Below are positions 9,288-43,864 of a stretch of 43,864 nt of DNA, piece after piece. The position numbers were made by a program, and so were the translations under genes. This DNA comes from a virus. The notes under the pieces are model-generated. The model did not search any database. It saw only the letters and a program-made list of their open reading frames with translations, and had not been told where the DNA came from. How positions within the stretch are numbered: the first letter of the stretch is position 1; every line of letters begins with the position of its first letter. The DNA lies in the IMG/VR virus record IMGVR_UViG_3300040751_003512, positions 1 through 43,864 of that record; one strand, given 5' to 3'.

Positions 9288-9288
9288 G

Positions 9289-9317: not shown

Positions 9318-9326
9318 TATTCAGTG

Positions 9327-11426: not shown

Positions 11427-11432
11427 TTCAAA

Positions 11433-11440
11433 TTAAATAC
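11433..11440 (+). promoter_or_regulatory. late-type promoter motif TTAAATAC directly before an ATG
   Basis: TTAAATAC is followed by five bases (TCCAA) and then ATG 11446 of the epimerase gene. There is no Shine-Dalgarno in between. The same layout precedes several morphogenesis genes in this window. Confidence 0.4.
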
Positions 11441-11445
11441 TCCAA

Positions 11446-15020: not shown

Positions 15021-15636
15021 TGACAATTTGGTAAATCTCTTTCCAATTACTTACTCGTATTATGTCTGGATGATTAAAGTCTCGATTGTATGGATGGTCG
15101 ATTAATATAGGCTTTAAACCGTATTTGAGCCCGGCTACAGCGTTGTTTGGCTTGTCCTCGACCCAATACAGTCTGGTGTTGTGAAACTCCGCTAACGCAC
15201 TGTCTTTATCGGCACCTGTGCCAAGTATGTGGTAATTTATGAACACATGGTCACCAAACAGTTCGCCCAATCGTCTCTTACGTAACTCTTGTGCTGGTAT
15301 GTCAGATGTCTGTGATGTGATTGGTATGAAGGTCCAACCCTCTGCGGCCATTAATTTTACCCACGTCTGTGATTCCAACATAGGACGCTGGTTGCCCATC
15401 CAAGCACTTCTGTTGAACTCCCTGATGTGTTTCCTTATCTCGTCTTTGGTAACACCAAATCGTTCCGCCATCTCGTATGTGTTCTCTTTGTCTGGCAGTA
15501 ACCTGTGTGGATGATATCTGGCACCTTTCTCATCAAACAGTGTTTTCTGTAACATCCATTTTGTAAAATGGTGTTCCCATTCCAACAATACACCGTCTAC
15601 GTCTGTGAGTATTATTCTATTATTTGATATCGGCAT
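15001..15636 (-). CDS. HAD-superfamily phosphatase
   Basis: A 211-residue protein with the HAD motif I ILTDVDGVLLEWE (nucleophile D12, acid/base D14), motif II in FIPITSQTSD, and motif IV YWVEDKPNNAVAG. Members remove phosphate from small molecules such as sugar phosphates or nucleotides. It lies at the boundary between the glycan island and the uvsY gene, overlapping uvsY by 17 bases and the radical SAM gene by 20. It could belong to either: a sugar-phosphate phosphatase for the island, or the nucleotidase-like HAD often seen in phage genomes. Confidence 0.75.
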   Translation of the reverse strand: MPISNNRIILTDVDGVLLEWEHHFTKWMLQKTLFDEKGARYHPHRLLPDKENTYEMAERFGVTKDEIRKHIREFNRSAWMGNQRPMLESQTWVKLMAAEGWTFIPITSQTSDIPAQELRKRRLGELFGDHVFINYHILGTGADKDSALAEFHNTRLYWVEDKPNNAVAGLKYGLKPILIDHPYNRDFNHPDIIRVSNWKEIYQIVNGRVKK

Positions 15637-16081
15637 CTTCCATTCCCGCGACTCTCAGTTTCACAATGTTTGTGATCTGCCATTGCTTCTGATCGAGTCC
15701 TTTGGTTATGCCTAGCCATTGATTTCTGATTAACGCAAAGTCATTTATTATCTTGTCCATGTCAACAACATCATCCTCACCGTCAACGTACTTCTCTGCA
15801 TCTCTGCTGGACAGTGCTCTGTTGTAATTTTCTAAATATTTCCTGAATGTTTTTGATCTTAGTCTTCTCAATTCTATGTTTAGGTATTCCAATATCGCTT
15901 CTAACTGTTGCAGTTGACTGAATCTTTCTTCCACTATGCCTGGCAGTGACGCACTGGCCCTTTCCAGGTTACCGTAGATCTTGCACTGCTTCTTGGCCTC
16001 AATCAATTCCTTGTCAAAGTACGCTACACAGTCTGGTATCTTTGCTAGGTTCCTGCTGACTTCGTTGTACCAATTAATCAT
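15620..16081 (-). CDS. uvsY: UvsY recombination mediator
   Basis: A 153-residue, helical, charged protein matching UvsY of marine T4-like phages (T4 UvsY is 137 residues). UvsY loads UvsX on DNA covered by gp32. Supporting features are its place just downstream of uvsX, its size, and a C-terminal QWQITNIVKLRVAG segment. The central part (about residues 40-100) is predicted coiled coil and Arg/Lys-rich. The start ATG 16081 overlaps the upstream small gene by 8 bases. Confidence 0.8.
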   Translation of the reverse strand: MINWYNEVSRNLAKIPDCVAYFDKELIEAKKQCKIYGNLERASASLPGIVEERFSQLQQLEAILEYLNIELRRLRSKTFRKYLENYNRALSSRDAEKYVDGEDDVVDMDKIINDFALIRNQWLGITKGLDQKQWQITNIVKLRVAGMEDADIK

Positions 16082-16307
16082 CTTCGCCGTATCCGTCTGA
16101 CTCTTCGTCTTCCTCGAACACAGTGTTGATCGCTTCCTCTAACTTGGGATCGTATTCAGCAGACGCCTTGATCTCGTCATGCTCCACTCCTATGTCCTCT
16201 AGGCTCTTGATGAAGTCTATGGCACAGTCCAGTTTCTGTCTCTCTGGAACGTAGTGTGTTATGGAGTTCCATAACCTTTCGATGTCCTCGTGTGTAAAGT
16301 CTATCAT
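16074..16307 (-). CDS. small acidic protein between uvsX and uvsY
   Basis: A 77-residue acidic protein ending in an Asp/Glu-rich tail (FEEDEESDGYGEDD). I know of no function. Its ATG shares one base with the uvsX stop (TAATG) and its end overlaps uvsY, so its level is probably tied to theirs. Acidic tails of this sort often contact ssDNA-binding or recombinase proteins, which fits the setting but is inference. Confidence 0.75.
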   Translation of the reverse strand: MIDFTHEDIERLWNSITHYVPERQKLDCAIDFIKSLEDIGVEHDEIKASAEYDPKLEEAINTVFEEDEESDGYGEDD

Positions 16308-17410
16308 TACTCTTCTTTTTTACTCTTGGTTTTTAGTTTTGTATCTGTTTCTACCTCGATAGGGGCATCTGTGTCTTCCACCTCTTTGGGTGCTTCATCT
16401 TTGAACTCCGCCATTATCATATCTAATTTATCACCAGTCCATTGTTTTCTGAAGTCAATGTGTTCTTTTCCTTTAGAATCAATATACTTCAATCTGTTTC
16501 CTGTCTGTACTAGCAAACCTTTTTTCTCAAACAACTCAACTAGGCCACTGTATGGATCCATTCCTGTGTCATAAGGTATCTTGACCTGCACACCTTCAAA
16601 CGGTTTAGCATATCTAGTTTTCATTACCTTACAAGCGGCTCTAATACCCCTCACGTCTGAGACCTTGTTACCTGCTTCGTCTTCTTTAAGTTTTAGTTTT
16701 TTCATTGCAACAACAATACTTGATGCATAGATAAATCCTTGTCCTCCTGATATCTTGTCATCTGGATCAAACATATCTTGCGATGCATATGTGTGATTGG
16801 TTGCTATAAGTCCCACGTTCCAACTACCAAACATGTTCACACAGTTTCTCACGAGTGCTGTCAAGGCCTTGGGTTTTCTACCCAAGTCTCCTTTCATGTC
16901 ACCTGCTTCAAACTGGTTGACGTCTGTTGGTGTAAGCATCATGCCCAGACTGTCTATAACGAATAGCACCTTAGGTGCACCTTCCTTGTTGTCTGCGTGT
17001 TGTTCTTTGTACCCTTTCATGAACTCTGAAACAGTCTTTGCCACGTCATCGACCATTGACATGCTTAATTTTAAAAGTTTATCTTCTGATGTGTCGACTT
17101 TCAATGCCTGCAACCATTTCTCATCTAGTGCGTTCTCTGTGTCTATCAGGATAACGAAGATGCCTTGCTCTTGTGCATTCTTGATTATGTTACCTGATGC
17201 TATGTAACTTTTACCTGCTCCTGACTCACCTGCAAGTACAGTTACCTTACCTAGTGGAATACCTTTATTGAAATCACTGGTCATCAAATAGTTCAATGCG
17301 TAATTTCCTGTTGAGATCCAATCTGTTGGATCACTGAATCCAATACCTAATCCTTGTATTGATTTTGTAATGCTCTTTCTAAACTTTGTTGCGTCAAATA
17401 CTTTTGTCAT
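16307..17410 (-). CDS. uvsX: UvsX, RecA-like recombinase
   Basis: A 367-residue strand-exchange protein. The open frame reaches 17461, but ATG 17410 has an AAAGGAC Shine-Dalgarno 7-13 bases upstream and gives the usual UvsX N-terminus. Walker A is GESGAGKS (61-68), Walker B is in KVLFVIDSLGMM, and ATNHTYASQD and ISGGQGFIYASS correspond to the L1/L2 DNA-binding region. The C-terminal tail is acidic then Lys-rich. It works with UvsY and gp32, both encoded next to it, in recombination-dependent replication. It has its own sigma70-type promoter just upstream. Confidence 0.95.
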   Translation of the reverse strand: MTKVFDATKFRKSITKSIQGLGIGFSDPTDWISTGNYALNYLMTSDFNKGIPLGKVTVLAGESGAGKSYIASGNIIKNAQEQGIFVILIDTENALDEKWLQALKVDTSEDKLLKLSMSMVDDVAKTVSEFMKGYKEQHADNKEGAPKVLFVIDSLGMMLTPTDVNQFEAGDMKGDLGRKPKALTALVRNCVNMFGSWNVGLIATNHTYASQDMFDPDDKISGGQGFIYASSIVVAMKKLKLKEDEAGNKVSDVRGIRAACKVMKTRYAKPFEGVQVKIPYDTGMDPYSGLVELFEKKGLLVQTGNRLKYIDSKGKEHIDFRKQWTGDKLDMIMAEFKDEAPKEVEDTDAPIEVETDTKLKTKSKKEE

Positions 17411-17432
17411 AATTTTGTCCTTTGTGTCATCT

Positions 17433-17461
17433 ATTTTAGCATACCTAGGCCCTAACGTCAA
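17433..17461 (-). promoter_or_regulatory. sigma70-type promoter for uvsX
   Basis: Minus strand: -35 TTGACG (17456-17461), a 17-base spacer, -10 TAAAAT (17433-17438) preceded by TGC, giving an extended -10. The predicted start near 17426 leaves a leader of about 16 bases with AAAGGAC. The -35 hexamer falls almost entirely in the loop of the inverted repeat at 17442-17477. Confidence 0.72.
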
Positions 17462-17487: not shown

Positions 17488-18483
17488 TTATTTTGCTTGT
17501 CTTGATCTAATCAACTTCAAGATGTCTTCCGCTCTCTTGGCACTATCGCCCGCTGGAGCCGCCGTTGCCGGAGCCGCCTCAGGTTGTGGTGCTGGTGCAC
17601 TTTCAGTCACAGGTGCCGCCGTTGGAGCCGCTTCTGTTACTGGTGTTGCCGCTGGAGCCGATGCTGTTGGTACTGCTACCTGTGGTTTACCTTGGTAAGC
17701 CACGCCCGCCGGTCTGAAGTACTGTCCATACTGCTCGAGATCATAAGCCTCACCTTCCACAGATTTCGCAAATAGTTCTGCGATTATTTTAACCTCTGCT
17801 TCTGTTGGCTCTTTTGGTCTGAAGTCACCTAGGTTATGTAAACCATGTGTTTCGATCGCGGCTCTCTCTGCCTCATCTAATGCACGTTCTCTTCTTGACC
17901 ATTTTGATGTTGAGTAGTCAGCATAACCACCTTTTGTAGTCTTGGTGATCCTGAAGTCCACACCTTTCACGTAATCAGTTGGCATTTCTTCCATCTCTGG
18001 ATCCATGAGTGCTCCTCTGATTATATTGAAGATCTGAGGTCCAATTATGAATCTTCTGATCGGATTTTCAGGTGTTGAGTCTTCTGCTAGTGGATTCGTT
18101 GTCACAAAACCCTGGAAAATGTAACTCTTCTTTTTCCAGTATTTTCTGCCCATGTCTTCCATGCTCTTGTCTTTGAACCATGGTCTAACTTCTGTTAGTA
18201 CTGGACAAGTCTTGCCATACATCTCCATGCAAGGTACTTGCACTGTAACTGGTCGAGAATCAGTCTGACCTTTTATACCTGCGAAAGGTAATTTGATCAT
18301 GTTTCTTTCCGTCCAGAAAAATGTATTGTTTGTATCCTTATCGGGCAAGAATCTGATCACTGCTTCTGATCCTTCTGCTATGTTCCAATGTGGATAAATG
18401 GCGTTGTCTCCGCCTGTGTTGGAAGTGGAGCGATTCACTTCTTGAGATTTTAACTTCGCTCTTATTTCAGCCAATGATGCCAT
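17488..18483 (-). CDS. gp32: gp32 single-stranded DNA-binding protein
   Basis: A 331-residue protein coating ssDNA in replication and recombination. The N-terminal MASLAEIRAKLKS is the basic self-interaction arm. The OB-fold core holds aromatic residues and C85 and C93 (PCMEMYGKTCP), where the T4 protein has its zinc site. The usual acidic C-terminal tail is replaced by an Ala/Pro/Thr-rich stretch (about residues 255-310) and a short basic helix ending AEDILKLIRSRQAK. Start ATG 18483 has a strong AAAGGAGG. A 128-base upstream gap carries promoters. It is adjacent to uvsX as in relatives. Confidence 0.92.
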   Translation of the reverse strand: MASLAEIRAKLKSQEVNRSTSNTGGDNAIYPHWNIAEGSEAVIRFLPDKDTNNTFFWTERNMIKLPFAGIKGQTDSRPVTVQVPCMEMYGKTCPVLTEVRPWFKDKSMEDMGRKYWKKKSYIFQGFVTTNPLAEDSTPENPIRRFIIGPQIFNIIRGALMDPEMEEMPTDYVKGVDFRITKTTKGGYADYSTSKWSRRERALDEAERAAIETHGLHNLGDFRPKEPTEAEVKIIAELFAKSVEGEAYDLEQYGQYFRPAGVAYQGKPQVAVPTASAPAATPVTEAAPTAAPVTESAPAPQPEAAPATAAPAGDSAKRAEDILKLIRSRQAK

Positions 18484-26588: not shown

Positions 26589-26593
26589 ACTCG

Positions 26594-26601
26594 TATTTAT
26601 G
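26594..26601 (-). promoter_or_regulatory. late-type promoter CATAAATA before the tube-like gene
   Basis: CATAAATA lies 5 bases (CGAGT) before ATG 26588 and directly after the terminator at 26607-26633. There is no Shine-Dalgarno. The layout is almost the same as at gp13 (TATAAATA, TGAGT, ATG). Confidence 0.55.
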
Positions 26602-26606
26602 GCCAC

Positions 26607-26664: not shown

Positions 26665-27291
26665 TTATTGTCCACCACCAGTACTTAGAGTACCTACAGT
26701 CCTAGCCACCGCTGTTCCGATTCCTGTTCCTGTTGGAGTCTGGATCGCGTTGTCGTATCTGATTGACATCGTGATAGTCGCTGGTTCTGAAGAATTGTAT
26801 GCTAGTGAGTTGTAGTTTACGTCTTGAACGTACGCACCATACAATTCAAATGTTTCTAATACATTTGGTGTAGATGCTCCGTTACCACCGTCAAGCATTT
26901 CAATCCTGCCTGTGAATTTGTAGTCAATCCCTGATGCCGCCGAACTTTGTTCAAAGAAATCAAATTGTTTCTGGATCTGTTCACCAACCAGTTTAGTAAC
27001 CGAGTTGTTCACGTCATCTCTTAGAGTGATTGTGATTGGTTCCCAGGTGTGTTTACCTGCTACGTATACTTTAGAGTTGTAAACGTCTAGTGTAACTGTG
27101 TCAAAAGTCAAGTTAGGTCTTGTAATGTCCATAACTTGTTTTGTTAGTTCTGATCTTGGTGTTGATACTCCAAAATTCTCCAGGATCGCTCTAAAACGAT
27201 ACTGTAATTTTGGCATCAACAAACCTTGTGATGCTGAACTCTGATCGTTTGCTAGTGGTACTGTGAATTTTGATAAAGTTGATATTGCCAT
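26665..27291 (-). CDS. gp19: gp19 tail tube protein
   Basis: A 208-residue tail tube subunit. Matching features are its position immediately after the sheath gene, its length (T4 gp19 is 163; marine forms about 200), and segments YRFRAILENFG, ITRPNLTFDTVTLDVYNSKVYV, TITLRDDVNN, and a C-terminal LETFELYGAYVQDVNYNSLAY. Tube rings stack inside the sheath and carry DNA. A GGAG Shine-Dalgarno precedes ATG 27291. A Gly/Thr-rich C-terminus extends beyond the core. Confidence 0.92.
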   Translation of the reverse strand: MAISTLSKFTVPLANDQSSASQGLLMPKLQYRFRAILENFGVSTPRSELTKQVMDITRPNLTFDTVTLDVYNSKVYVAGKHTWEPITITLRDDVNNSVTKLVGEQIQKQFDFFEQSSAASGIDYKFTGRIEMLDGGNGASTPNVLETFELYGAYVQDVNYNSLAYNSSEPATITMSIRYDNAIQTPTGTGIGTAVARTVGTLSTGGGQ

Positions 27292-32775: not shown

Positions 32776-32783
32776 AATAAATA
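32776..32783 (+). promoter_or_regulatory. late-type promoter AATAAATA for gp14
   Basis: Plus strand, eight bases before ATG 32792. Part of the back-to-back pair with the gp13 promoter. Confidence 0.55.
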
Positions 32784-32791
32784 TGTATGAT

Positions 32792-33961
32792 ATGCCAAGA
32801 TTATCCATTTTTAAGCCTGAAAAGGGCAACGACTACAAGTTCTTCGATCGTAACATCAGAGAGATGTTCACTGTGGGCGGCACCGACCTGCACTTCCACA
32901 AATATCTTGGTCCATACAATCAGGGAGAAAATCAAAAGGACGGCGAGGCCAGTCCAACGTCTCCGAACTACTCAGGCGACAGCCTAAACGAAAGGACCAT
33001 ACAGGATTTACTTTTCCTTGAAAACAGAGACAGGAGATATGCGGACGATGTGTATGTGGTCAGGGGCATATACAATGTGCAGGATGCCGATTTCAATCTA
33101 TCACAGTTTGGAATGTTCCTACAGAACGATACACTATTTTTGACAGTGCATTTGAACGATATCGTGGAGAGGATTGGTAGGAAACCAATGAGCGGTGATG
33201 TGATAGAGTTCCCACACATGAAAGAAGACTACAGTCTAGACGAATCAGTACCTATAGCATTGAAAAGATACTACGTGGTAGAAGACGTTAATAGAGCGGC
33301 AGAAGGTTTTTCGCAAACTTGGTGGCCACATCTACTTAGATTGAAAATGAAGACTCTAGTTGATTCACAGGAGTTCAGAGATATTATTGGCGACGCAACG
33401 ACAACAGGGTCGGTTGCCAATTACATGAGCACTTACAACAGAGAGAAAACTGTCAATGATCAAGTGGTCCTACAGGCAGAACAAGACGCACCTAAGGCAG
33501 GCTTCAACTATAAGCAATATTATGTTGCACCAATCGATGAAAGAGGTAACATAAGAACAAACAACGTGAACACAGAACAAAACAGGGCCAGCAGTGATCA
33601 GACTGTGAATGCTGTCATAGATTCTCCAGCCGCTTCACACTATGGATTTTACCTTGACGGAGACGGAGTCGCACCAAACGGACATCCAGCAGGCTTTGGT
33701 ATTTCTTTTCCAACATCAGGTGTTGACAAGGGAGATTATTTCTTAAGGACAGATTACTTGCCTAATAGGTTATTCCGTTATGACGGAAACAGATGGGTCA
33801 AGATAGAAGATTCTGTGAGGATAAACATGACCAATAATGATTCTAGAGCAAATTATAAAACAGGTTTTGTCAATAACACCAACGAAGACACAATAAATGG
33901 ATTAACTACAAAACAAAGGCAATCACTTACAGATGCTTTGAAACCAAAGGCTGACAATTAA
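32792..33961 (+). CDS. gp14: gp14 neck protein
   Basis: A 389-residue protein (T4 gp14 is 256). ATG 32792 (MPRLSIFKPEKGNDY) is preferred to ATG 32783, which lies inside the AATAAATA motif. The core FNLSQFGMFLQNDTLFLTVHL, then KPMSGDVIEFPHMKEDYSLDE, matches gp14 (FGMQVQDEVTLSVN ... EPKEGDLIYFPM). The C-terminal extension (about 280-389) is not in T4 and holds a module GDYFLRTDYLPNRLFRYDGN-RW like those in the sheath insert and fibres. It works with gp13 at the head-tail joint. It overlaps gp15 as TAATG. Confidence 0.82.
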   Translation: MPRLSIFKPEKGNDYKFFDRNIREMFTVGGTDLHFHKYLGPYNQGENQKDGEASPTSPNYSGDSLNERTIQDLLFLENRDRRYADDVYVVRGIYNVQDADFNLSQFGMFLQNDTLFLTVHLNDIVERIGRKPMSGDVIEFPHMKEDYSLDESVPIALKRYYVVEDVNRAAEGFSQTWWPHLLRLKMKTLVDSQEFRDIIGDATTTGSVANYMSTYNREKTVNDQVVLQAEQDAPKAGFNYKQYYVAPIDERGNIRTNNVNTEQNRASSDQTVNAVIDSPAASHYGFYLDGDGVAPNGHPAGFGISFPTSGVDKGDYFLRTDYLPNRLFRYDGNRWVKIEDSVRINMTNNDSRANYKTGFVNNTNEDTINGLTTKQRQSLTDALKPKADN

Positions 33962-35400
33962 TGCTACATTTTTACGAAGGACAGGTTAGGAAATTCCTCA
34001 CTCAATTTATTAGAATATTGAGTAACTTCTCTGTGGAAACAGGTAAGGGCAGTGATGGCTCGATAAACCTAAGGGCGGTGCCTGTTGTGTACGGAGATCC
34101 AACTAGGCAGGTAGCAAACATCATAAGGAACAACAGTGAGAACGCATTGAACTATGCTCCCAAGATCGCTTGTTACGTGAGAGAATTGAACTATGACAGG
34201 GAAAGAATGCAGAACCCTTATCACATTGAAAAACAACATCTCAAAGAAAGAGATGTGGGTTCTGACGGAAACTACACAAATCAATTGGGTGCTGGTTACA
34301 CAGTTGAAAAAGTGATGCCCTCACCTTTTAGATTAGAAGTCACGGCAGATATTTTCTCTTCAAACACAGATCAAAAATTACAAATACTTGAGCAGATTTT
34401 GTATTTGTTCAATCCAGATTTTGAAATACAGAAATCGAGCAACTATATCGATTGGACATCATTGAGTTATGTAGAATTAAGAGACATTAGTTTTAGTTCT
34501 AGAACTATTCCAGTAGGTGCAGAAAGTGAAATTGACGTGGCAACAATGACATTTAGTATGCCAATATGGCTATCACCGCCTGTCAAGGTCAAGAAATTAG
34601 GTGTTGTACAAAAAATTATAATGAGCATCTACGACGACGACGGCGGAATCACGAAAGGTTTGATAGACGGAGATCTTTTATCACGAAGTTACATCACACC
34701 AAACAATTTTGGTTTGTTAGTAACAGGCAATCAATTGAGATTATTAGGTACAACAGGGGTCAATGTGAAATCAGGCGGGGACGGTTATTACACTGGAGCA
34801 AATGATCCTAGTTTGGCAGATCCTTTTGAGGCATTCGGACCTGCCGTGAACTGGAAAGTCCTGTTAGATCAGTACGGCAAAGTCACTAACGGAACATCAC
34901 AGATAAGGCTGAAACAACCCAACGGCAACGAAGTAGTGGGAACAATCGCAACAACTTCTTTAGATGACACGATATTACTTTACACTGTCGATAATGACAC
35001 AATACCTAGTAATACTTTGACAGCAGTGAAGAAAATTATAAATCCAGCAACTTTTGATCCAGGTACGCCCTCAAACGGTGACAGATATTTGGTAATAAAT
35101 GATGTGGGAGATAGCACAGCAAGTTTCCAAAGTCAGACTTGGGGTGCTTTGGTGGCCAGTGTGGGAGACATAATTGAATACAACAGTTCAACGAGTAAAT
35201 GGAACGTGGCATTTGATGCCTCCGATCCAGACTCCACGCAACACTATGTTACCAATCTGAACACAGGAATACAGTACAGGTTCAATGGCACGGAGTGGGT
35301 GAAATCATACGAAGGTGTGTACACACAAGGCAACTGGACCATTGTGTTAGACGGTGGTTCTTCCAGTTATGATCCTAGCATAGATGCCACAACCCCTTGA
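33961..35400 (+). CDS. gp15: gp15 tail terminator / sheath stabiliser
   Basis: A 479-residue protein (T4 gp15 is 272). The first 225 residues match gp15: MLHFYEGQVRKFLTQFIRIL, NLRAVPVVYGD, SPFRLEVTADIFSSNTDQKLQ with ILEQILYLFNPDFE, and TFSMPIWLSPPV. gp15 caps the finished tail tube and sheath and joins the neck. The remaining 250 residues are an extension with modules such as NGDRYLVIND and IQYRFNGTEWVK, again of the type shared with gp14, gp18 and the fibres. It is translated with gp14 through a TAATG overlap. Confidence 0.8.
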   Translation: MLHFYEGQVRKFLTQFIRILSNFSVETGKGSDGSINLRAVPVVYGDPTRQVANIIRNNSENALNYAPKIACYVRELNYDRERMQNPYHIEKQHLKERDVGSDGNYTNQLGAGYTVEKVMPSPFRLEVTADIFSSNTDQKLQILEQILYLFNPDFEIQKSSNYIDWTSLSYVELRDISFSSRTIPVGAESEIDVATMTFSMPIWLSPPVKVKKLGVVQKIIMSIYDDDGGITKGLIDGDLLSRSYITPNNFGLLVTGNQLRLLGTTGVNVKSGGDGYYTGANDPSLADPFEAFGPAVNWKVLLDQYGKVTNGTSQIRLKQPNGNEVVGTIATTSLDDTILLYTVDNDTIPSNTLTAVKKIINPATFDPGTPSNGDRYLVINDVGDSTASFQSQTWGALVASVGDIIEYNSSTSKWNVAFDASDPDSTQHYVTNLNTGIQYRFNGTEWVKSYEGVYTQGNWTIVLDGGSSSYDPSIDATTP

Positions 35401-35430
35401 TAATTTTCTACTAAATTGTTATAATAAGGT

Positions 35431-35859
35431 ATGAAAGAAAACATAGTTTGCTCTGGATCACTGTTCTATTCCACTAGTACGAAGAGATTTTTATTCCTGC
35501 AACGAACCGACAAGAAAACACAAGGGTTATGGGGATTGGTCGGTGGTAAGAGCAAATTCACTGAAAGTGCGTTCGAGGGATTGAAACGTGAGATAGAGGA
35601 AGAAGTGGGAGACACGCCTAAATTTAAAAAAACTATACCACTAGAGATGTTCACGTCAAACGATCAGAAGTTCTTCTTCCACACTTATTTGATTGCCATA
35701 GAATCAGAATTTATACCCAAGTTGAATGCGGAACATTCAGGTTACTGTTGGACCGCGTTCGAGTGCTGGCCTAAGAACCTACACATGGGTCTCAAAAACA
35801 CCCTTAACAATAAAAGCATAAAAGGTAAGTTGCAGACTATATTGGATCTAATTGTCTAA
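35431..35859 (+). CDS. Nudix hydrolase
   Basis: A 142-residue protein with a complete Nudix box: G39-x5-E45-x7-R53-E54-I-E-E57-E58-V-G60. The enzyme would cleave a nucleoside diphosphate linked to another group (for example nucleotide sugars, dNTPs, ADP-ribose or capped RNA). The residues around the box (LWGLVGGKSKF) are of the MutT/T4 NudE-like form. A TATAAT followed by AAGGT lies directly before ATG 35431. Its stop overlaps the opposing fibre gene stop by 4 bases. Near the fibre genes it may be a late-expressed housekeeping enzyme; the substrate is open. Confidence 0.85.
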   Translation: MKENIVCSGSLFYSTSTKRFLFLQRTDKKTQGLWGLVGGKSKFTESAFEGLKREIEEEVGDTPKFKKTIPLEMFTSNDQKFFFHTYLIAIESEFIPKLNAEHSGYCWTAFECWPKNLHMGLKNTLNNKSIKGKLQTILDLIV

Positions 35860-38597
35860 TCTTTTTTGATGTAAGTTTTACCTGTGAGTTTCTCTATGTC
35901 ACGGATCATTTCTTCCATGTTGATCCTCACGGTCTTTCCAGTTTTGGTGTTCCTTGAATAGTATTCCCACTCACCCGCCTCGTTGTGCGGAGATATCTTG
36001 GTCACGTTGCCCGCCTCATCTTTTACGAACACTTCAGCACTAGATGCCTCGTCCTTGGCGTATATGTGTGCATAGTTGGTAATTGTGGCAGGATCACTGT
36101 TCACAGCCAATGCCACGGGGGTGTTCATTTTTATTCGACCACCCGCATTTCCATCAATTATAAACTGTCCATTGTTGCCTGCGGGATCGGCGGTCGTACC
36201 ATCTGTGGAAACTGCAACAGCAAACTGTGTCTTGTTGGCATCGTTGGTGTTATCAAAAGCAAACGAACCGCCAACAATGAGTGCTGAACCATTCCAGTAT
36301 TCGTGGTTACTCCTGAACAGGTAGTCACCTGCCTGCACAGCACTTGGCGATCCTTCCGTGCCCCTGTATCTCCTTGTCCTCACGTCCGGGGCGTCAGCCG
36401 AGTCGTTGTACTGCTCCATCCTGATCTGTGTGGTCTGGGCACCAGTGCCCGTCATGTGCAGTGTGACCTCTGGAGAGGTCTGGTTTATGCCCAAGTAGTT
36501 GGATACAGGATCAACGGTAAGTGTAGTGGTCTCGCCTATGGTACCATCGCCTGCGTTGATAAGGAATGCGTTGTCTGTGGATAATCCAGTCACTTTCAAG
36601 TTGTCATTAACTGTCACTGCACTGGAGTCACTGGATGATATGCTGTTAAGGATTACCTCTTGCGAGAATGTCTTCTGACCCGTGATGGTCTGTTCCGTTG
36701 ACACCAACACCGTGTCTGCCGTTGATGCACCTGCTGATCCCCTCAGCATGTGTACCCTGTATCCGTTAACGGTTGTACTTGAACCTGATGTTGATGCCGC
36801 TTTGACTGTGACCGTGCTTCCTAACAGGCTGGCTGTGAAGTCCAACTGATCTGTACCTTTCGTGCTTACAACTGGTCCAGTACCAATGTATGCTTCGTCA
36901 TTGGCAACCACCATGACCTCTGATATGCTGGCCGCACCTTCTGAGGAGTTGTATCCGGTGAACACGTAAAATGCACCTGTGTACGTTGATGTGTTGAATG
37001 AATCTACTGTTGTTGCGGCGGAACTCACGGTAGTCGCTTCTACAATATTGATATTATCCCCAGTTGATGCTCCTTCGTCATCTGCGAGTAAAATCCTGTA
37101 TACAGTCACACGGCAATTGGGTGCCTGGGCTGATGCTTTCAATACAACTTCTGTGCTGTCCACCTCCGCGGTCAGTGTGATAAGGTCGTTGTTTCCAGTG
37201 TTGACGTTTCCGTATTGTGTGATGAATGCTGTGGAACCGTCGTGCACCACCAGTGCCTCTGTGTTTGACACTTCTCCCGTGGTTGTGTTATTGACCGAGA
37301 TGTAGTATTTGGCACCCCTGTAACTGGCCAATGCGAATCCGTCTATCTTCTCTGCGGCACTGTCCACATCTGTGTTTATCGTGGTCGTGACATTTCCCGT
37401 GGTGCCGGCCGTGGTGTTGTCACCTACTGCTATTCTATAAATTGACACAGAGTTAACAACACTGCCTCCTGTCCCTAACAGTCTTGCATTACCACCTGCA
37501 ACATCCGCCTGCACAGTCAGGTATGAATTTGAGCTGTCAGATTCCACTATGTGTGAGTGTGCCACGAAAGCATCTGAATCATTGTGCACCAGACTGTACT
37601 TGGCAGTGGCAACTTCATTGTTGATTTCATCTCTGGTTATGGCCAGGTACCAGGCACTGTCAAAACTGCTGGTCACGAATTGGTTTATAACACCTTGTGT
37701 GGTGCTGAGTGCTGAGGCTTCTGTGTTGGACGTGTCGTCGGTGTTTTCAGATGTTGTCGTGGTTGCACCCAGTTGTGCCCATCCACCCGCGGTGGTGTAG
37801 CCCTCTATGGTGTCAGTGCTACTGTTGTATCTTATCTCACCAACCGCTCCGCTCGGTCTCTGTGCGGTTGTACCGTTGGGTAATCTTATGGCGTTGGTGA
37901 CTGCTGATGCATCCAAAACGGTTGTGGCATTCATTGTGATTATCGTACCACCGTCTGCGGCAACAGTGATCGCACCTGTTCCCGAATCTGTTACGGTCAC
38001 GTTTGAGTTGCCTTGTGATATCGATGATGTTGACACGGCACCCACTTCCGCGTCCACGTAGGCCTTGATGGATTGTTGTGAAGCAACTGATGTTGCACTG
38101 TCACTAGATAGGTCATCCTCGTCTTTGAAGAATCCTGATAGGAAGTTTCCACTGTCTATGTTCGTAATGTTGTTACCAGTTCCGTTGGCATCGATGGTCT
38201 TGTTCGTTAATGTATCTGTGCTGGAAGCCGTGATGTAGGATGTTAGGTCTGGTCCTGTCACGGTCAGGGTGTCGCCACTCACGGCCGTGGTGATGTTCTG
38301 TGTGCCCGCTATCTTGAATGTCTCACCGGTGCCCAGTGTGGCACCTGTTGAGTCGTCTCCCACCAACTGTATGTTGGTGTCAACGTTGATGCCTGTAAGT
38401 TGGGATCCATCCCCAGCGAATGCCGTGGCTGTTACTGTTCCGTTTACCTGTAATGCTGTTGATGGTTCAGAAGTACCAATACCCACACGACTGTTTGTGA
38501 CATCGAGATACAGTAGGTTTGTTTCAAATGCCAGGTCAGTACCATTCCTAGTCAGATTCGACTTCAGTACCGACCCTGATATACGACCTATGGCCAT
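35856..38597 (-). CDS. tail fibre-type protein 1 with tandem beta domains
   Basis: A 913-residue Ser/Thr/Gly-rich fibre protein. N-terminus MAIGRISGSVLKSN followed by GIGTSEPSTALQVNG, a 'fibre-linker' pattern common in marine phages. It carries FKDEDDLSS-type and ASQQSIKAY modules shared with fibres 2 and 3. Three similar domains of about 80-100 residues follow each other from about 310 to 640 (each with an S/D-F-x-x-x-x-Y-x-x-A-x-Y start and a VYRI/YRVH end). The C-terminus has SPHNEAGEWEYYSRN and ends in an Arg/Lys-rich helix (MEEMIRDIEKLTGK), a typical end of such fibres. Start: AAGGAG, with late promoter and terminator upstream. Likely host-binding or baseplate-attached. Confidence 0.8.
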   Translation of the reverse strand: MAIGRISGSVLKSNLTRNGTDLAFETNLLYLDVTNSRVGIGTSEPSTALQVNGTVTATAFAGDGSQLTGINVDTNIQLVGDDSTGATLGTGETFKIAGTQNITTAVSGDTLTVTGPDLTSYITASSTDTLTNKTIDANGTGNNITNIDSGNFLSGFFKDEDDLSSDSATSVASQQSIKAYVDAEVGAVSTSSISQGNSNVTVTDSGTGAITVAADGGTIITMNATTVLDASAVTNAIRLPNGTTAQRPSGAVGEIRYNSSTDTIEGYTTAGGWAQLGATTTTSENTDDTSNTEASALSTTQGVINQFVTSSFDSAWYLAITRDEINNEVATAKYSLVHNDSDAFVAHSHIVESDSSNSYLTVQADVAGGNARLLGTGGSVVNSVSIYRIAVGDNTTAGTTGNVTTTINTDVDSAAEKIDGFALASYRGAKYYISVNNTTTGEVSNTEALVVHDGSTAFITQYGNVNTGNNDLITLTAEVDSTEVVLKASAQAPNCRVTVYRILLADDEGASTGDNINIVEATTVSSAATTVDSFNTSTYTGAFYVFTGYNSSEGAASISEVMVVANDEAYIGTGPVVSTKGTDQLDFTASLLGSTVTVKAASTSGSSTTVNGYRVHMLRGSAGASTADTVLVSTEQTITGQKTFSQEVILNSISSSDSSAVTVNDNLKVTGLSTDNAFLINAGDGTIGETTTLTVDPVSNYLGINQTSPEVTLHMTGTGAQTTQIRMEQYNDSADAPDVRTRRYRGTEGSPSAVQAGDYLFRSNHEYWNGSALIVGGSFAFDNTNDANKTQFAVAVSTDGTTADPAGNNGQFIIDGNAGGRIKMNTPVALAVNSDPATITNYAHIYAKDEASSAEVFVKDEAGNVTKISPHNEAGEWEYYSRNTKTGKTVRINMEEMIRDIEKLTGKTYIKKD
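38110..38147. repeat. 38-base repeat shared by fibre genes 1 and 2 (copy 1)
   Basis: Identical at all 38 bases to 40035-40072. It encodes the SGNFLSGFFKDEDDLS part of the shared module. Exact DNA identity between paralogs suggests recent exchange or strong constraint. Confidence 0.85.
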
Positions 38598-38680
38598 ACC
38601 GGGGTACTCCTTATAATAATGTTAGTAGAACATATGTCCTACACAGTCTCTCTATCATTGCCGACTGACAGCAGTATACG

Positions 38681-38688
38681 TATTTATA
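38681..38688 (-). promoter_or_regulatory. perfect late promoter TATAAATA for fibre 1
   Basis: Exact T4 late consensus about 85 bases upstream of ATG 38597, starting six bases after the T run of the fibre 2 terminator. The leader ends with AAGGAG (38607-38612). Confidence 0.75.
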
Positions 38689-38693
38689 CGCCT

Positions 38694-38725
38694 AAAAAAA
38701 AAGGGCGACCCTAGAGCCGCCCTTT
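38694..38725 (-). terminator. intrinsic terminator after fibre 2
   Basis: Minus strand: AAAGGGCG, 10-base loop, CGCCCTTT followed by further Ts (arms 38718-38725 and 38700-38707; T run 38694-38702). It lies 28 bases after the fibre 2 stop. Confidence 0.85.
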
Positions 38726-38752
38726 GATTCTACTAAAAAGTAGTGATATTTA

Positions 38753-40711
38753 TTAGTTGTTGGTCCTCACAGCACAGTTTACCAGTTTGATTCCTGCTTC
38801 TGTGTTAGATTCCAGTGCCCTACCAATGACGTTGAAAGGAGAGATTGACTCGCCCTGCGCCACTGCTCTAGCACAACCTTTGATTGATGAAGTAACAAGT
38901 CTTTGACCTTTGTTGACTACACCTGTAACCCTAACCGGTGTTCTACCCGTCATTGCCACGAATGGGTGTGTGTCATTGTCACCTGCACCTGCGTTCATCA
39001 TGTATGCTGGTTTGTCCGAGATAACACCAAAAACGTCCTGAGACATTTCTGAAGTTGCTTCCGTGATCTCTGCTGTACCGCCTACTTCTACAACTGAACC
39101 AATTTCCATAGGAGCGTCTGCTTCGAAACGCTCCGCCACGTCCGCGTACTGTGCCGCTGATGCAGTGGTTGATAAAACGTTGGTTGATGGATTGTAACTC
39201 AGACCAGTGTCCGTCTCAATGCCCTGTGTGCCAGTTGCTCCGTCAACGAATGTCAAGTAAACAGTCTCGTTGGCAGTGTTGTTGGCAGACACCGTCACGT
39301 TCGTTGCTTCTGTTGCCGTGTCAGCATTACCTGTTACTGCACCAGTCAAATCTCCAGCAAAGCCTGTTGCTGTAAGCACACCTGAACTACTGTTGAAAGT
39401 TAGGTTGGTTCCTGACTTAGGACCCAAATCTCCAGTGGCCGCTGTTGTGAAAAGTACATTACAACTGGTATCACTGCTTTCATCTGCTACTGTAACTGCC
39501 GTTGCCACATCAGCAGTACCTGTGACGTCTCCAGTCACGTTACCTTCAATGTTCGCAACTAACGTACCTGTGGTGATAGTCAAGTTACCTGTTGATGCAC
39601 CAGTACCAGTTGTTGTACCAACTATGAACTTGTCCTCTGATTCGTCCCAACCCATAAAACCGTTGTTACCTGTTGAACCACGCTCAAGGATTAACCCTAA
39701 GTCGTTCGCGTTAGAACCTGTGTTACCTGATCCCAACTCGATCAACGCATCTTCTATGGTTGTGTTCGTTGAACTGTTGGTCACTGTCGTGCCGTTGGTT
39801 GTCAAGTTACCTGAGATCACAACGTTACCTGAGAAGGTTGCCGTTGTATCATTGATCACAAGTTCCGTGTTACCATCTGCTGTTACTGTGAACGCACCAT
39901 CTGAACCCGTGTCTGACACTACTGCTGTGGTGTTGCCCGCAGTCAGTGTGGTTGATGACAGACTTGATAGTCCGTTGTCAATGTAGGCCTTGATCGACTG
40001 CTGTGAAGCAACAGAAGTGGCACTGTTTGATGACAGGTCATCCTCGTCTTTGAAGAATCCTGATAGGAAGTTACCCGAGTCGATGTTTGAAAGTGAGTTA
40101 CCTGTTCCGTTGGCATCAAAAGTCTTGTTAGTGAACGTCTGAGTTCCAGCCAGTGTTGCCACCGTGCTGTCGATCGCCACAGTCAGTGTGTTACCTGATC
40201 CTGTTGTGTCAATACCCGTACCACCTGCTATATCAAGTGTTTCTGAATCAAGGTCGATGCTCAATGCACCACCTGAATCACCCTGGAAGTCAAGGTCTGA
40301 CGCTGTTACTTGTGCGTCAACGTATGCCTTGATCGACTGCTGTGTGGCCAGTGCTGTGTCTGAGTCACCTGATAGATCATCTTGGTCAAGGATGCTGTTG
40401 ACCCTTGCACCTGATCCACCCAACTGCATACCAGAATCAGTAACTGTTACTTCTGTGTTACTGTTTGCTGTGATAGTCAGTGTACCTGACGCTCCTGTGC
40501 CTGACACAGTGGCATTCGTCGCGTTACTGTCCGTTGTGATACTTGTTGTTGAGATCGCATTGATTGAATCGTCAACGTATTTCTTGTTGGCCGTGTCCCC
40601 GTCAGCACTTGGTGCCGCAGTTGACAGACCTGTTATCGTTCCCGCACTTGCTGATATCGTGATATCACCAACTGAAAGACCGTTCTTTACTCTAAAGTTT
40701 CTTGTTGTCAT
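38753..40711 (-). CDS. tail fibre-type protein 2 with C-terminal G2/IMC-like domain
   Basis: A 652-residue fibre protein. It starts MTTRNFRVKNGLSVGDI and carries ADGDTANKKYVDD and ASQQSIKAYIDN modules. The C-terminal 130 residues (QYADVAERFEADAPMEIGS-V, then VFGVISDKPAYMMN, TGRTPVRVTGVVNKGQRLV) form a compact domain also present in fibre 3. It resembles the end domains of phage fibres grouped with peptidase G2/intramolecular chaperones, but no catalytic residues can be pointed out by eye. It shares DNA-level repeats with fibres 1 and 3. GGGAG precedes the start. Confidence 0.78.
   Translation of the reverse strand: MTTRNFRVKNGLSVGDITISASAGTITGLSTAAPSADGDTANKKYVDDSINAISTTSITTDSNATNATVSGTGASGTLTITANSNTEVTVTDSGMQLGGSGARVNSILDQDDLSGDSDTALATQQSIKAYVDAQVTASDLDFQGDSGGALSIDLDSETLDIAGGTGIDTTGSGNTLTVAIDSTVATLAGTQTFTNKTFDANGTGNSLSNIDSGNFLSGFFKDEDDLSSNSATSVASQQSIKAYIDNGLSSLSSTTLTAGNTTAVVSDTGSDGAFTVTADGNTELVINDTTATFSGNVVISGNLTTNGTTVTNSSTNTTIEDALIELGSGNTGSNANDLGLILERGSTGNNGFMGWDESEDKFIVGTTTGTGASTGNLTITTGTLVANIEGNVTGDVTGTADVATAVTVADESSDTSCNVLFTTAATGDLGPKSGTNLTFNSSSGVLTATGFAGDLTGAVTGNADTATEATNVTVSANNTANETVYLTFVDGATGTQGIETDTGLSYNPSTNVLSTTASAAQYADVAERFEADAPMEIGSVVEVGGTAEITEATSEMSQDVFGVISDKPAYMMNAGAGDNDTHPFVAMTGRTPVRVTGVVNKGQRLVTSSIKGCARAVAQGESISPFNVIGRALESNTEAGIKLVNCAVRTNN
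39231..39288. repeat. 58-base repeat shared by fibre genes 2 and 3 (copy 1)
   Basis: Identical at all 58 bases to 41247-41304. It encodes the TVYLTFVDGATG region before the C-terminal domain. Confidence 0.88.
39944..39994. repeat. 51-base repeat shared by fibre genes 2 and 3 (copy 1)
   Basis: Identical at all 51 bases to 41771-41821. It encodes the IKAYIDNGLSSLSSTTL segment. Confidence 0.88.
40035..40072. repeat. 38-base repeat shared by fibre genes 1 and 2 (copy 2)
   Basis: Second copy of the 38-base block at 38110-38147. Confidence 0.85.
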
Positions 40712-40750
40712 GGTTCCATTTCTCCCGCATGATTTTTGTTAATGTATGGA

Positions 40751-40758
40751 TATTTATG
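40751..40758 (-). promoter_or_regulatory. late-type promoter CATAAATA for fibre 2
   Basis: 40 bases before ATG 40711. The leader has GGGAG (complement of 40722-40726) ten bases before the ATG. The 69-base gap to fibre 3 shows no clear terminator. Confidence 0.6.
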
Positions 40759-40780
40759 CGGTTTTTGGAAATTTTAACAG

Positions 40781-42340
40781 TTACACTTTAAGAACGCATT
40801 CCACCAGTTTGACGCTAGAATCACCGTTTGATTCCAGTGCTACCCCAACCATAATTGATCCAGTGTTTGATGCTGTGGCATGACCGTTGTCGTCCACGTA
40901 CACCGCCTGTCCTTTGGTCACCGCACCTGTTACTTTCACTGGCACACGTCCTTTTAGTGCGACAGCCTGTCCCTCGCTGTTGGAATTCATGAGGTACGCC
41001 GGAGCAGTAGAGATAACACCCACCGGTATAGAATCCTGCATGGCAGGTTCCACTTCAGGTAAAATATCCATATCTCCATTCCCTGGTCCTATCGTAACCC
41101 TGACCACAGTGCCCGGCTCCAGATCTCCGGTGGACGTGGTGTATTTCTCAGCCAAGTCAGCGTACTGTGCCTGTGAGGCAGTGGTCGTCAACACATTGGT
41201 ACTTGGGTTGTAACTCAAACCAGTGTCCGTCTCGATGCCCTGCGTTCCAGTTGCTCCGTCAACGAATGTCAAGTAAACAGTCTCGTTGGCAGTGTTGTTG
41301 GCAGTCACAGTCACGTTTGTTGCCTCAGTGGCAGTGTCCGCATTACCTGTTACTGCACCAGTCACATTACCTTCTATGTTAGCAACTAGTGTTCCCGTTG
41401 ATACTGAGATACCACCCGACTTGTCAGCCGCTGTTGCAGTTGTCGTACCCATTGCGAATTTGTCTGCTGACTCATCCCAAATAATTGCCGCGTTGTTACC
41501 TGTTGAACCTCTTTCGATAATAAGACCAGCGTCATTCGATGATGCTGATATACCTGTGTTAAGTTCAATTAAGTTATCATTGATTGTTGTGTTAGTCGTA
41601 GCAACTGTTGTGGTCGTACCGTTGACCGTGAAGTCTCCTGTCACGATAACGTTACCACTGAAAGTTGCTGACGTGTCGTTGATCACTAATTCCGTGTTGC
41701 CTTCTGCCGTCACAGTGAACGCACCGTCTGAACCTGTGTCAGACACCACCGCTGTGGTGTTGCCCGCTGTCAGTGTGGTTGATGACAGACTTGATAGTCC
41801 GTTGTCAATGTAGGCCTTGATAGACTGCTGTGAAGCAACTGCTGTGGCACTGTCTGATGACAGGTCGTCCTCGTCCTTGAATGCCGCACTGGCGAAGTCC
41901 GCAGTCTCTATGTTCGAGATCGAGTTGCCTGTGCCGTTGGCATCAAATGTTTTATTTGTAAAAGTTAAAGTGTCGCCGGCTATGTTGGCATCCTGTGCGT
42001 CAACGTAGTCGATGATGGCACCAGCAGTCACCAAAGCGGTGTCTGAATCATTAGATGCCAGTGTCTCTGATACGTTGATGATGGCACTACCAGCAAAATC
42101 TGCCACTTCTAAATTTGTAATACTGTTTCCTGTGCCATTCGCATCTATTGTTTTGTTTGTGAAAGTGAGTGTGTCCGAGGCTATTAGGGCATCCTGATCG
42201 TCCACATATTTTTTGTTAGACACATCACCATCAGCACTTGGTGCCGCTGTTGCTAGTCCCGTGATTGTGTTATTGACTGCGGATATTACAATATCGCCGC
42301 ATTCAAGTCCGTGATTTACGAAAAAATTTCTTGTTGTCAT
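40781..42340 (-). CDS. tail fibre-type protein 3, paralog of fibre 2
   Basis: A 519-residue fibre protein. The N-terminus MTTRNFFVNHGLECGDIV is parallel to fibre 2. There are two DTLTFTNKT-[IF]-DANGTGN repeats (near 55 and 120), then the shared KDEDDLSSDSAT and IKAYIDNGLSS modules. The C-terminal domain starts QYADLAEKY, with VGVISTAPAYLMNSN and KGRVPVKVTGAVTKGQ, clearly related to fibre 2 but diverged and with a Gly-Pro-Gly-Asn insertion. Blocks of 51 and 58 bases are identical to fibre 2 at the DNA level. AGGA precedes ATG 42340. Confidence 0.78.
   Translation of the reverse strand: MTTRNFFVNHGLECGDIVISAVNNTITGLATAAPSADGDVSNKKYVDDQDALIASDTLTFTNKTIDANGTGNSITNLEVADFAGSAIINVSETLASNDSDTALVTAGAIIDYVDAQDANIAGDTLTFTNKTFDANGTGNSISNIETADFASAAFKDEDDLSSDSATAVASQQSIKAYIDNGLSSLSSTTLTAGNTTAVVSDTGSDGAFTVTAEGNTELVINDTSATFSGNVIVTGDFTVNGTTTTVATTNTTINDNLIELNTGISASSNDAGLIIERGSTGNNAAIIWDESADKFAMGTTTATAADKSGGISVSTGTLVANIEGNVTGAVTGNADTATEATNVTVTANNTANETVYLTFVDGATGTQGIETDTGLSYNPSTNVLTTTASQAQYADLAEKYTTSTGDLEPGTVVRVTIGPGNGDMDILPEVEPAMQDSIPVGVISTAPAYLMNSNSEGQAVALKGRVPVKVTGAVTKGQAVYVDDNGHATASNTGSIMVGVALESNGDSSVKLVECVLKV
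41247..41304. repeat. 58-base repeat shared by fibre genes 2 and 3 (copy 2)
   Basis: Second copy of 39231-39288. Confidence 0.88.
41771..41821. repeat. 51-base repeat shared by fibre genes 2 and 3 (copy 2)
   Basis: Second copy of 39944-39994. Confidence 0.88.
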
Positions 42341-42383
42341 TGTTGTTCCTCATAATTTGAAACGTTGATGTATCGCTAGGCCG

Positions 42384-42426
42384 TAAAAAAACGCCCCAAC
42401 AGTGATATTTACCATTGGGGCGTTTT
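42384..42426 (-). terminator. terminator after fibre 4 with a late-promoter motif in its loop
   Basis: Minus strand: AAAACGCCCCAA, 15-base loop, TTGGGGCGTTTT and more Ts (arms 42415-42426 and about 42388-42399, T run to 42384). The loop contains GTAAATA. The hairpin lies 34 bases after the fibre 4 stop and 44 bases before ATG 42340 of fibre 3. Confidence 0.88.
42406..42412 (-). promoter_or_regulatory. late-type motif GTAAATA inside the terminator loop
   Basis: GTAAATA in the loop of the terminator, about 66 bases upstream of fibre 3. It is the only TAAATA-type motif in this gap. It is a candidate promoter for fibre 3, which otherwise has none. Confidence 0.45.
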
Positions 42427-42460
42427 GAATTATCGTTAAGGTCTAGTTTTGCCTACGTGT

Positions 42461-43864
42461 TTACTGTGCTAACGAGTACTGAACCTTGACAGCCTGTGTG
42501 CCCGAGTTCAATGCAGTCGCCTGCACGTTGACAGTGTTTGATCCATCGTGTTCGAACGATATGTCAACTATGTCACCTGCCGCCGTGTTTGTCACAGCGT
42601 AAGTTGTACCGTAAGCAGTTGAACCATCATGTAGTACAGTGGCCTTCATCGCAGAGTACTGCGTGTTACCTGAGTCTTGTACTGTGATGAACAGTTCCGC
42701 AGATCTGTAAGTCGCCGCGTTAAAGCTCATGATCGTCACCGCACTTGAACCTGACACAGATATCGCTGATGTCTCTGATCTAGCAACACCACCTGTCACC
42801 AACGCACTGTTGTCAGCACCAGTGATAGCAAATATCCTCGCACCCGAGTGAGGGGCAGAAGTAAATGTTATGTTGGTTCCTGAAACACTGTAGTTCTCAG
42901 TTGGTTCTTGGTACACGTTGTCTATGTAAACGAAAACGTTGTTCGCTGATTCTGGAGCAGAGCTGAAGAAACCAGTGAACGTAGTTGTTGATCCGTCACC
43001 TGTGGTTGATTCCTTGGTGAAAGTTGGAGCGTCGCCCGCCGTCGCAAAGTCAACGTAAGTGGATCCATCCTGACAACCTTCGTATTTTCCAGTTGTTGTG
43101 TTGAATCTGATCAATCCTGGAGCACCAGTTGGTCTCTCACTCGTCGTACCGTTTGGTAGTCTCAACGCATCTGTTGAACCACCCACGTCTAAGTCATACG
43201 CTGGTGAACTTGTTCTTACACCAACATGGTCCTCTGAACCATCTATGAATAAAGCGTGTGTGTCACCGTTGGATTCAAATCTAGCATCTACCGAAGCAGA
43301 ACCTTCATTGAACGTGAAGTTACCACCGTTTACGTCAACAGCACCAGTCATTGACACTGCTGTTGATATCGCCACAGCACCTGTTGAGTCTGTGAGTACG
43401 ATAGCCGCTGTGCCGTCATTTGCTCTTATGTTGGTAGCATTTACTGACGTCGCTGTAGCAGTTGTGAATGTACCCGCCGCCGCACTGTTGGCACCGATAG
43501 TTGTACCGTCAATTGCGCCACCGTTTATGTCTGCCGTGTCAGTGGTGAAAGTCACACCACTTGCCACTGTAAACGCTTGGCTGGCTGTTATCAACTCTGA
43601 ACTGTTTGTGGTGTCAAACTTCAAGTATGAGTTTGAACCTTCCTTGATGTCCAAAGCCGCCGCTGTGTTGTCAGTTAGTGTGATACCTATCGTTGTGCCG
43701 TCTGCACTGATTGTGTCAAGTGCTACGTCGCCGGCGTTCGTGATGTTACCGTCACTTACTGATAATGAACTCACAGTAGCCGCCGCGGCTGATGCCGCAC
43801 CGATCGTCACACCGTCCAGTGATCCACCGTTGATGTCTGCTGTGGTCAACACCGAACTAGCGAT
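42461..43864 (-). CDS. tail fibre-type protein 4, N-terminal part missing
   Basis: The frame is open to the window edge (the first in-frame GTG, at 43852, is preceded by further codons without a stop), so at least 467 residues of a longer fibre are visible. Two repeats of the type ADINGG-x-[LI]-DG-x-TIGA-x-SAAA (near the visible N-terminus and about 90 residues on) are typical of phage fibres. LRLPNGTTSERPTGAPG and a FVYIDNVYQEPTENY module follow. The last 85 residues (RSAELFITVQDSGN to VQYSLAQ) resemble the tandem domains of fibre 1. A terminator follows the stop. Confidence 0.78.
   Translation of the reverse strand: MASSVLTTADINGGSLDGVTIGAASAAAATVSSLSVSDGNITNAGDVALDTISADGTTIGITLTDNTAAALDIKEGSNSYLKFDTTNSSELITASQAFTVASGVTFTTDTADINGGAIDGTTIGANSAAAGTFTTATATSVNATNIRANDGTAAIVLTDSTGAVAISTAVSMTGAVDVNGGNFTFNEGSASVDARFESNGDTHALFIDGSEDHVGVRTSSPAYDLDVGGSTDALRLPNGTTSERPTGAPGLIRFNTTTGKYEGCQDGSTYVDFATAGDAPTFTKESTTGDGSTTTFTGFFSSAPESANNVFVYIDNVYQEPTENYSVSGTNITFTSAPHSGARIFAITGADNSALVTGGVARSETSAISVSGSSAVTIMSFNAATYRSAELFITVQDSGNTQYSAMKATVLHDGSTAYGTTYAVTNTAAGDIVDISFEHDGSNTVNVQATALNSGTQAVKVQYSLAQ

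Follow-up and report, generated by a model that had tools for sequence, protein, structure and literature searches.

Why do three adjacent fibre genes of an uncultured marine phage share stretches of DNA that are identical base for base, while the codons on either side of them differ? The genes lie in a 43,864-base virus record of IMG/VR (IMGVR_UViG_3300040751_003512), the whole of which is called the window here, and the phage behind it is of the contractile-tailed T4 type. Because its ends cut through a fibre-like gene (F4) and a helicase gene, the window is probably a fragment of a genome. We read the exact repeats, with a probability of about 0.82, as what is left of recombination between fibre modules that are drawn, interchangeably, from a common pool; that this pool works mostly between phages and across gene slots appears well supported by comparison with related contigs. 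The genes concerned are the following.

35856..38597, minus strand: F1, fibre gene of 913 amino acids (aa), N-terminus MAIGRISGSVLK, C-terminus EKLTGKTYIKKD, with orthologues in relatives
38753..40711, minus strand: F2, fibre gene of 652 aa, N-terminus MTTRNFRVKNGL, tip type B ending NCAVRTNN; from matches to PHROG families named tail fibre or unknown and from the mosaic map
40781..42340, minus strand: F3, fibre gene of 519 aa, N-terminus MTTRNFFVNHGLEC, tip type A ending LVECVLKV; from the mosaic map
42461..43864, minus strand: F4, fibre-like gene, open at the contig end with its 5' part missing; its orthologue precedes the slot in relatives

The repeats that they share, named B1 (58 bp), B2 (53 bp) and B3 (38 bp), are all in frame:

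39231..39288, minus strand: 58-bp exact repeat, F2 copy, at the joint before the tip
41247..41304, minus strand: 58-bp exact repeat, F3 copy
39942..39994, minus strand: 53-bp exact repeat, F2 copy
41769..41821, minus strand: 53-bp exact repeat, F3 copy
38110..38147, minus strand: 38-bp exact repeat, F1 copy
40035..40072, minus strand: 38-bp exact repeat, F2 copy

A preliminary description of the locus had given B1 and B3 exactly as they stand, both being maximal; its second block was a true identity, but the 51 bp that it reported are contained in a full length of 53 bp. The difference of the flanking codons is equally real, with ratios of synonymous to replacement changes of 19:5 around B1, 23:10 around B2 and 16:7 around B3. 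Among all direct repeats of the window these three blocks come first in length, the next ones measuring 25 and 19 bp. They lie in diverged homologous stretches of 221, 269 and 162 nt whose identities are 87%, 85% and 80%, respectively. When synonymous codons were shuffled within genes, the longest match between F2 and F3 averaged 17 bp (maximum 38) and reached 53 bp in 0 of 1000 shuffles; between F1 and F2 the mean was 13.5 bp (maximum 35), and 38 bp was likewise reached in 0 of 1000. The exact runs also exceed what a random scatter of equally many mismatches over the homologous stretches produces (P = 0.003, 0.002 and 0.002). Beyond the window, the 26-base cores of B1, B2 and B3 are present in 5, 0 and 2 other viral contigs. 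Three other contigs carry B1 with one or two bases changed, and two F1 orthologues have B3 exactly as it stands in F1. B2 is the sole block whose nearest copy is a paralogue in the same genome; its nearest copy in another phage, contig L175, differs at 1 of 51 bases.

Relatives were gathered from IMG/VR by similarity to F3, the tail sheath, F2 and the F2 tip, and by the repeat cores; of the sheath relatives, at least 597 confirmed stretches in that database, 80 were taken. The resulting 280 sequences (279 loci and the window) were reduced to 181 by shared 60-mers, with L001 and L002, which are the window itself, excluded. Synonymous change in 50-codon fibre windows was then compared with that in the core genes of the same contig, for windows in which at least 25 codons could be compared and contigs that offered at least 150 core codons. 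In 59 of 2662 tests, spread over 16 of 148 contigs, the difference passes Bonferroni correction, and in those 16 contigs 2-23% of conserved codons are changed in the fibre windows versus 41-54% in the core genes. Codons 1-50 of F2, for instance, show 3 of 48 synonymous codons changed against L166 (476 of 874 in the core), codons 151-200 of F1 show 1 of 49 against L169 (core 265 of 533), and codons 326-375 of F4 show 1 of 48 against L175 (core 490 of 1141).

The same picture emerges from 30-codon windows in the 41 contigs that hold both kinds of gene. A best match of at least 95% was found for 18%, 32% and 13% of the F1, F2 and F3 windows with matches; among the controls the figure was 0% for a gp15-like gene, 4% for the adjoining structural gene (32783-33961) and 0% for a nudix gene. 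Counting the switches of best relative along a gene did not discriminate, for core genes switch too. Along F2 the best relatives, at mostly 85-99% identity, succeed one another as follows: L166 (codons 1-60), L177, L172 and L168 are followed by the F1 genes of L168 and L169 (151-210), then by L168, by L175 or the paralogue F3 (226-270), by L173 (256-390) and L179 (406-450), and finally by L175, L177 and others up to the tip. Fragments are thereby shared between otherwise different fibre proteins, which is a mark of fibre mosaicism. The modules and neighbouring genes to which we refer are these:

38756..39157, minus strand: F2 C-terminal domain (tip type B), 92-94% DNA identity to L175, L172 and L177
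40037..40261, minus strand: F2 codons 151-225, cross-slot module with close copies (87-96% DNA identity) in the F1 gene of L168 and L169
40784..41173, minus strand: F3 C-terminal domain (tip type A), homologous to type B at 43% aa identity
41711..42250, minus strand: F3 codons 31-210, body module closest (84-98% DNA identity) to the single slot gene of L175/L003, which has a type B tip
32850..35450: core genes adjoining the fibre locus, mostly 99-100% identical to L085 in 100-base steps

The gp15-like core gene of L175, L172 and L177, whose tips are so close to that of F2, is just 74-79% identical to the window. The single slot gene of L175/L003 is itself composite, its first 20 residues and its tip being F2-like and most of its body F3-like. 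L085 provides the converse case. Across two core genes (about 32850-35450) it is almost the window's twin, with one inner step at 97% and lower end steps; beyond them identity falls to 73-84% in the nudix gene, and opposite the part of F1 at 35856-36790 of the window, L085 carries a different fibre gene (1-930). Provided that the assemblies are sound, this edge is consistent with recombination having replaced the fibre side.

In 28 loci including the window, the genes can be read in the order F4, a slot with one or two genes starting with MTxRNF, and F1. One gene occupies the slot in 24 of them, its tip being of type B in 14, of type C in 8 and unclassified in 2; the other four have two genes, with tips of type A then B in the window and L166, C then B in L174, and A then C in L164. 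Tip types A, B and C are homologous subtypes, with 43-56% aa identity to the F2 tip. A conserved MTxRNF anchor at the N-terminus is thus combined with at least three C-terminal types, as mosaic fibres with exchangeable C-termini would have it. Codons 1-30 of F3 resemble those with which the upstream gene of two-gene loci begins (86-87%), and not those of F2. In L016 (1842-4226) the gene in the slot starts with MTTRNF as usual but has a C-terminus other than the three tip types; by eye it resembles an intramolecular chaperone of the S74 type. As a universal joint before the tips, B1 holds up only partly: its YNPSTN motif precedes the tip by no more than 60 residues in 4 of the 6 genes with tip A, in 21 of the 69 with tip B and in none of the 19 with tip C.

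Junctions inside genes were sought in an exploratory scan of 4,680 triplets (2080 + 2424 + 176). With F2 as the child and F3 and L173 as parents, F2 is F3-like over B2 and L173-like thereafter, a pattern matched in 0 of 3,000,000 permutations (P <= 3.3e-7); given the size of the scan, this switch remains significant after correction (about 0.002). Triplets at P <= 0.01 make up 17-33% of those in the fibre regions (the 33% region holding 6 triplets) versus 2-15% in a core-gene control. Because the control yields such triplets as well, part of the junction signal is background, and it is the contrast that counts. Exchange across slots is indicated by four windows over F2 codons 151-225, namely two overlapping ones in each of two contigs (L168 and L169). 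In L168, moreover, the contig's own F1 and slot gene share a 101-bp exact repeat with a 60-bp exact run nearby; the repeat lies in a 662-nt stretch at 81% identity (P <= 5e-5). Sharp tracts of identity between diverged flanks, the signature of gene conversion for which the preliminary description proposed to look in relatives, do therefore exist, and are strongest in L168 and in B2 of F2 and F3.

Several results weigh against this reading. The excess of exact runs is modest when synonymous changes in conserved codons alone are counted (P = 0.012, 0.030 and 0.047). At B3, where the F2 flanks resemble the F2-type gene of L168 and the core equals F1, a transfer from F1 to F2 is only weakly indicated: the F2-type backbone that is closest gives P = 0.021 before correction, and the others give anything from 0.0009 to a value without significance, most of them failing to reach significance once corrected. 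Fibre similarity was in part the criterion by which relatives were picked, a bias towards finding similar fibres, and the 50-codon windows overlap one another. Since every sequence is an uncultured contig, some junctions could be mimicked by chimeric assembly. Finally, in a test that excluded overlapping copies and those below 50% identity, the nearest copy of a block rarely lay in the same contig, with 1 of 10 cases for B2 and 0 of 21 for B3.

This last result bears most directly on ongoing gene conversion between the tandem paralogues of one genome, which as the main process we consider unlikely, even though it would account for F3 being the nearest copy of F2 in B2, for the 101-bp tract that links two fibre genes of L168, and for an F2 gene whose B3 core is that of F1 between flanks like those of an L168 gene. 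For B1 the nearest copy is in the same contig in 5 of 11 cases versus 0.35 expected, all five being in L035, L033 and L048 and none in the window. Most modules of F1-F3 match other phages best. Among the 38 contigs with two non-overlapping fibre open reading frames (ORFs) of at least 250 aa each, inter-gene exact repeats of at least 37 bp occur in four (L168 with 101, the window with 58, L174 with 47 and L164 with 37 bp); L166 has one of 29 bp, and the other 33 contigs have none longer than 21 bp. Paralogues within a genome are not more alike than orthologues by the nearest-copy counts of B2 and B3, and general concerted evolution within genomes was accordingly rejected. Because the nearest copies are mostly in other contigs, paralogues would for the most part draw on a common pool and now and then exchange directly within a genome; and since copies in one genome are seldom each other's closest, no donor can be named for a particular tract. 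The preliminary description, which taken strictly would mean such ongoing exchange within the genome, is thus partly supported: module exchange by recombination stands, but mostly through a pool shared between phages.

Could the repeats simply be the undiverged remains of a recent tandem duplication that gave F2 and F3? That most relatives have a single slot gene (24 of the 28 loci, the window being counted among the 28) speaks for it. Yet F2 is not of the same length as F3, most of their modules are different, and their identity is limited to short tracts. F3 apparently comes from an older gene type, because its first 30 codons, which match the upstream gene of other two-gene loci, and its type A tip are not those of F2. 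A simple recent duplication, disfavoured by the slot counts together with the mosaic map, is therefore quite improbable.

We regard a chimeric contig, wrongly assembled at modules that are repeated, as similarly improbable. The window is a metagenomic contig, and repeats of 53-58 bp fall within the size range that can mislead assemblers. Against such an artefact, the order F4-F3-F2-F1 and the tip pair A then B recur in the independent contig L166, other two-gene slots are found in L164 and L174, and the ends of the modules differ from contig to contig.

The preliminary description had itself named codon constraint across distant phages as the explanation that its reading had to withstand, i.e. 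a peptide so conserved that the DNA remains identical. The peptide of B1 is indeed common: copies covering at least 80% of it (shorter ones were excluded) occur in 43 of the 181 non-redundant contigs, the window included, and the tail fibre of Flavobacterium phage immuto has 28 of its 30 residues. But 19 of these 28 conserved codons differ between immuto and F2, and L035 has 96% protein identity but 70% DNA identity for the peptide, with 15 of the 58 core bases changed. Copies of B2 and B3 also differ in their codons, and synonymous shuffles produced none of the repeats. As synonymous sites of the same peptide vary freely among relatives, constraint is very improbable and was rejected.

Variable fibre genes are common targets of reverse-transcriptase retroelements and site-specific inversion, but such a dedicated diversification device is scarcely credible here, since the fibre repeats are direct and their differences mostly synonymous. 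In this fragment contig, a PHROG scan of 40 window ORFs named neither an invertase nor the reverse transcriptase that a diversity-generating retroelement would require; the one inverted pair found in 36000-43864 measures 20 nt at 90%, so that there was no sign of an invertible fibre switch, and no homing endonuclease was named among the 20 ORFs, part of those in the window, that were scanned with Pfam.

If recombination among fibre modules is the source of the repeats, the course of events could be as follows. F1, F2 and F3 are chains of modules of roughly 30-180 codons each, consisting of anchor, shaft repeats, joint and tip, and many related marine phages have the same modules in their own fibre genes, now and then in another slot. 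A module would enter a gene when two phages that infect one cell recombine, or when neighbouring genes of a single genome do so, whereupon both genes would carry an identical tract for a time. Later mutation, mostly synonymous, would break up this tract and leave runs such as those of 58, 53 and 38 bp. The machinery may be the phage's own, as the preliminary description proposed in naming UvsX; the window encodes a UvsX-like protein and also its usual partners, the set of genes characteristic of T4-type homologous recombination:

15620..16081, minus strand: UvsY-like recombination mediator (phrog_231, E 1.4e-16)
16307..17461, minus strand: UvsX-like recombinase (phrog_97, E 2.7e-64; Pfam RecA)
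17488..18483, minus strand: gp32-like single-strand DNA-binding protein (phrog_1192, E 1.3e-63)

We infer that this UvsX/UvsY/gp32 system performs the exchange, that shared joints guide its site, and that the new combinations of tip and body would matter in host recognition; the host-range shifts that the preliminary description suggested may follow from them. PMC8262927 puts the identity for classic recombination at about 50-150 nt and reports that joining which depends on UvsX occurs at 3-4 nt. The tracts present now, 58, 53 and 38 bp in the window and 101 bp in L168, are today's lengths, which may differ from those at the time of exchange. A more far-reaching idea, which we offer only tentatively, is that several fibre genes built from one set of modules serve as a cassette store within the genome, whose conserved joints are reused across genes, whose bodies and tips are moved between slots and phages by recombination there faster than by mutation, and whose slot copy number changes between one and two.

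What the fibres are attached to is less clear-cut. F1-F4 matched no family in Pfam, and their PHROG matches name tail fibre but also head decoration or scaffold. A low-confidence structure prediction for the F2 tip (38756-39157; pLDDT 66) bears a weak likeness to proteins of capsid decoration and of the phi29 head-fibre base; the comparison of the tip sequence with solved structures gave nothing usable, with one match at E 0.089. The fold matches are only a hint at a decoration- or head-fibre-like barrel, and the fibres of the window might sit on the head instead of the tail.

As for the rest of the window, its tail sheath has its best match in Agrobacterium phage Atu_ph07, with 40% identity over 87%:

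27315-30716: tail sheath of 1133 aa

Beside it lie two adjoining tail-tube genes (25197-26606 and 26665-27291), one of 208 and one of 469 aa, both of which match phrog_4542. At 5632-13151 and 13812-15026 there are genes in the style of sugar modification, encoding a sulfotransferase, a glycosyltransferase 61, an FkbM methyltransferase, a nucleotide-sugar epimerase, a glycosyltransferase-2-like protein and a radical SAM/SPASM protein; glycosyltransferases have been reported from the host-recognition regions of pelagimyophages (PMC7029224).

Fibre mosaicism and labile host-recognition islands of marine phages are already established (PMC10684548, PMC2993671, PMC3909814, PMC7029224). Smug et al. 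(2023, PMC10684548) surveyed domain mosaicism of receptor-binding proteins by protein families across genomes, and what they describe is akin to the present case in that fragments are common to otherwise different fibre proteins, a conserved N-terminus goes with a changing C-terminus, and exchange is recent; in a word search, the main text of that survey contains neither 'paralog' nor 'intragenomic' nor 'duplication', whereas the window offers synonymous-site evidence, exchange between gene slots, and exact repeats within one genome. A 2010 review of tail-fibre mosaicism in T4 relatives (PMC2993671) likewise combines T4-type core and recombination genes with hypervariable mosaic fibres and invokes recombination. 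Unlike those phages, the window belongs to an uncultured marine group with a sheath only distantly similar to its best match and with fibre genes outside the Pfam families. Duplications of T4 adhesin domains widen host range (Tetart et al. 1996, as summarised in PMC9004378), and they too make duplicated sequence in fibre genes a substrate for change; there, according to that summary, the duplications lie in one gene and have a reported effect on host range, while here they lie in different genes and are known from sequence alone. Marine metaviromic islands and the host-recognition cluster (PMC3909814, PMC7029224) share the conserved core, the labile fibre regions and glycosyltransferases accompanying fibres, but the variation described in those accounts is at the level of islands, and in the window sub-gene modules and junctions are resolved. 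For Bacillus phage 0305phi8-36, PMC2147016 proposes a transfer of a domain between two virion genes of one genome; that transfer is ancient, at 41% identity, and the one considered here is recent, with 58 bp exact in the window and 101 bp in L168.

The case is thus ordinary in kind and unusually clear in resolution. In a marine phage group with many uncultured relatives, it provides a natural data set in which the exchange of fibre parts smaller than a gene is visible at the resolution of synonymous sites and across slots, and from which, with long reads, the rate and tract length of fibre recombination become measurable. It would also be a warning against taking similarity of fibre genes for kinship.

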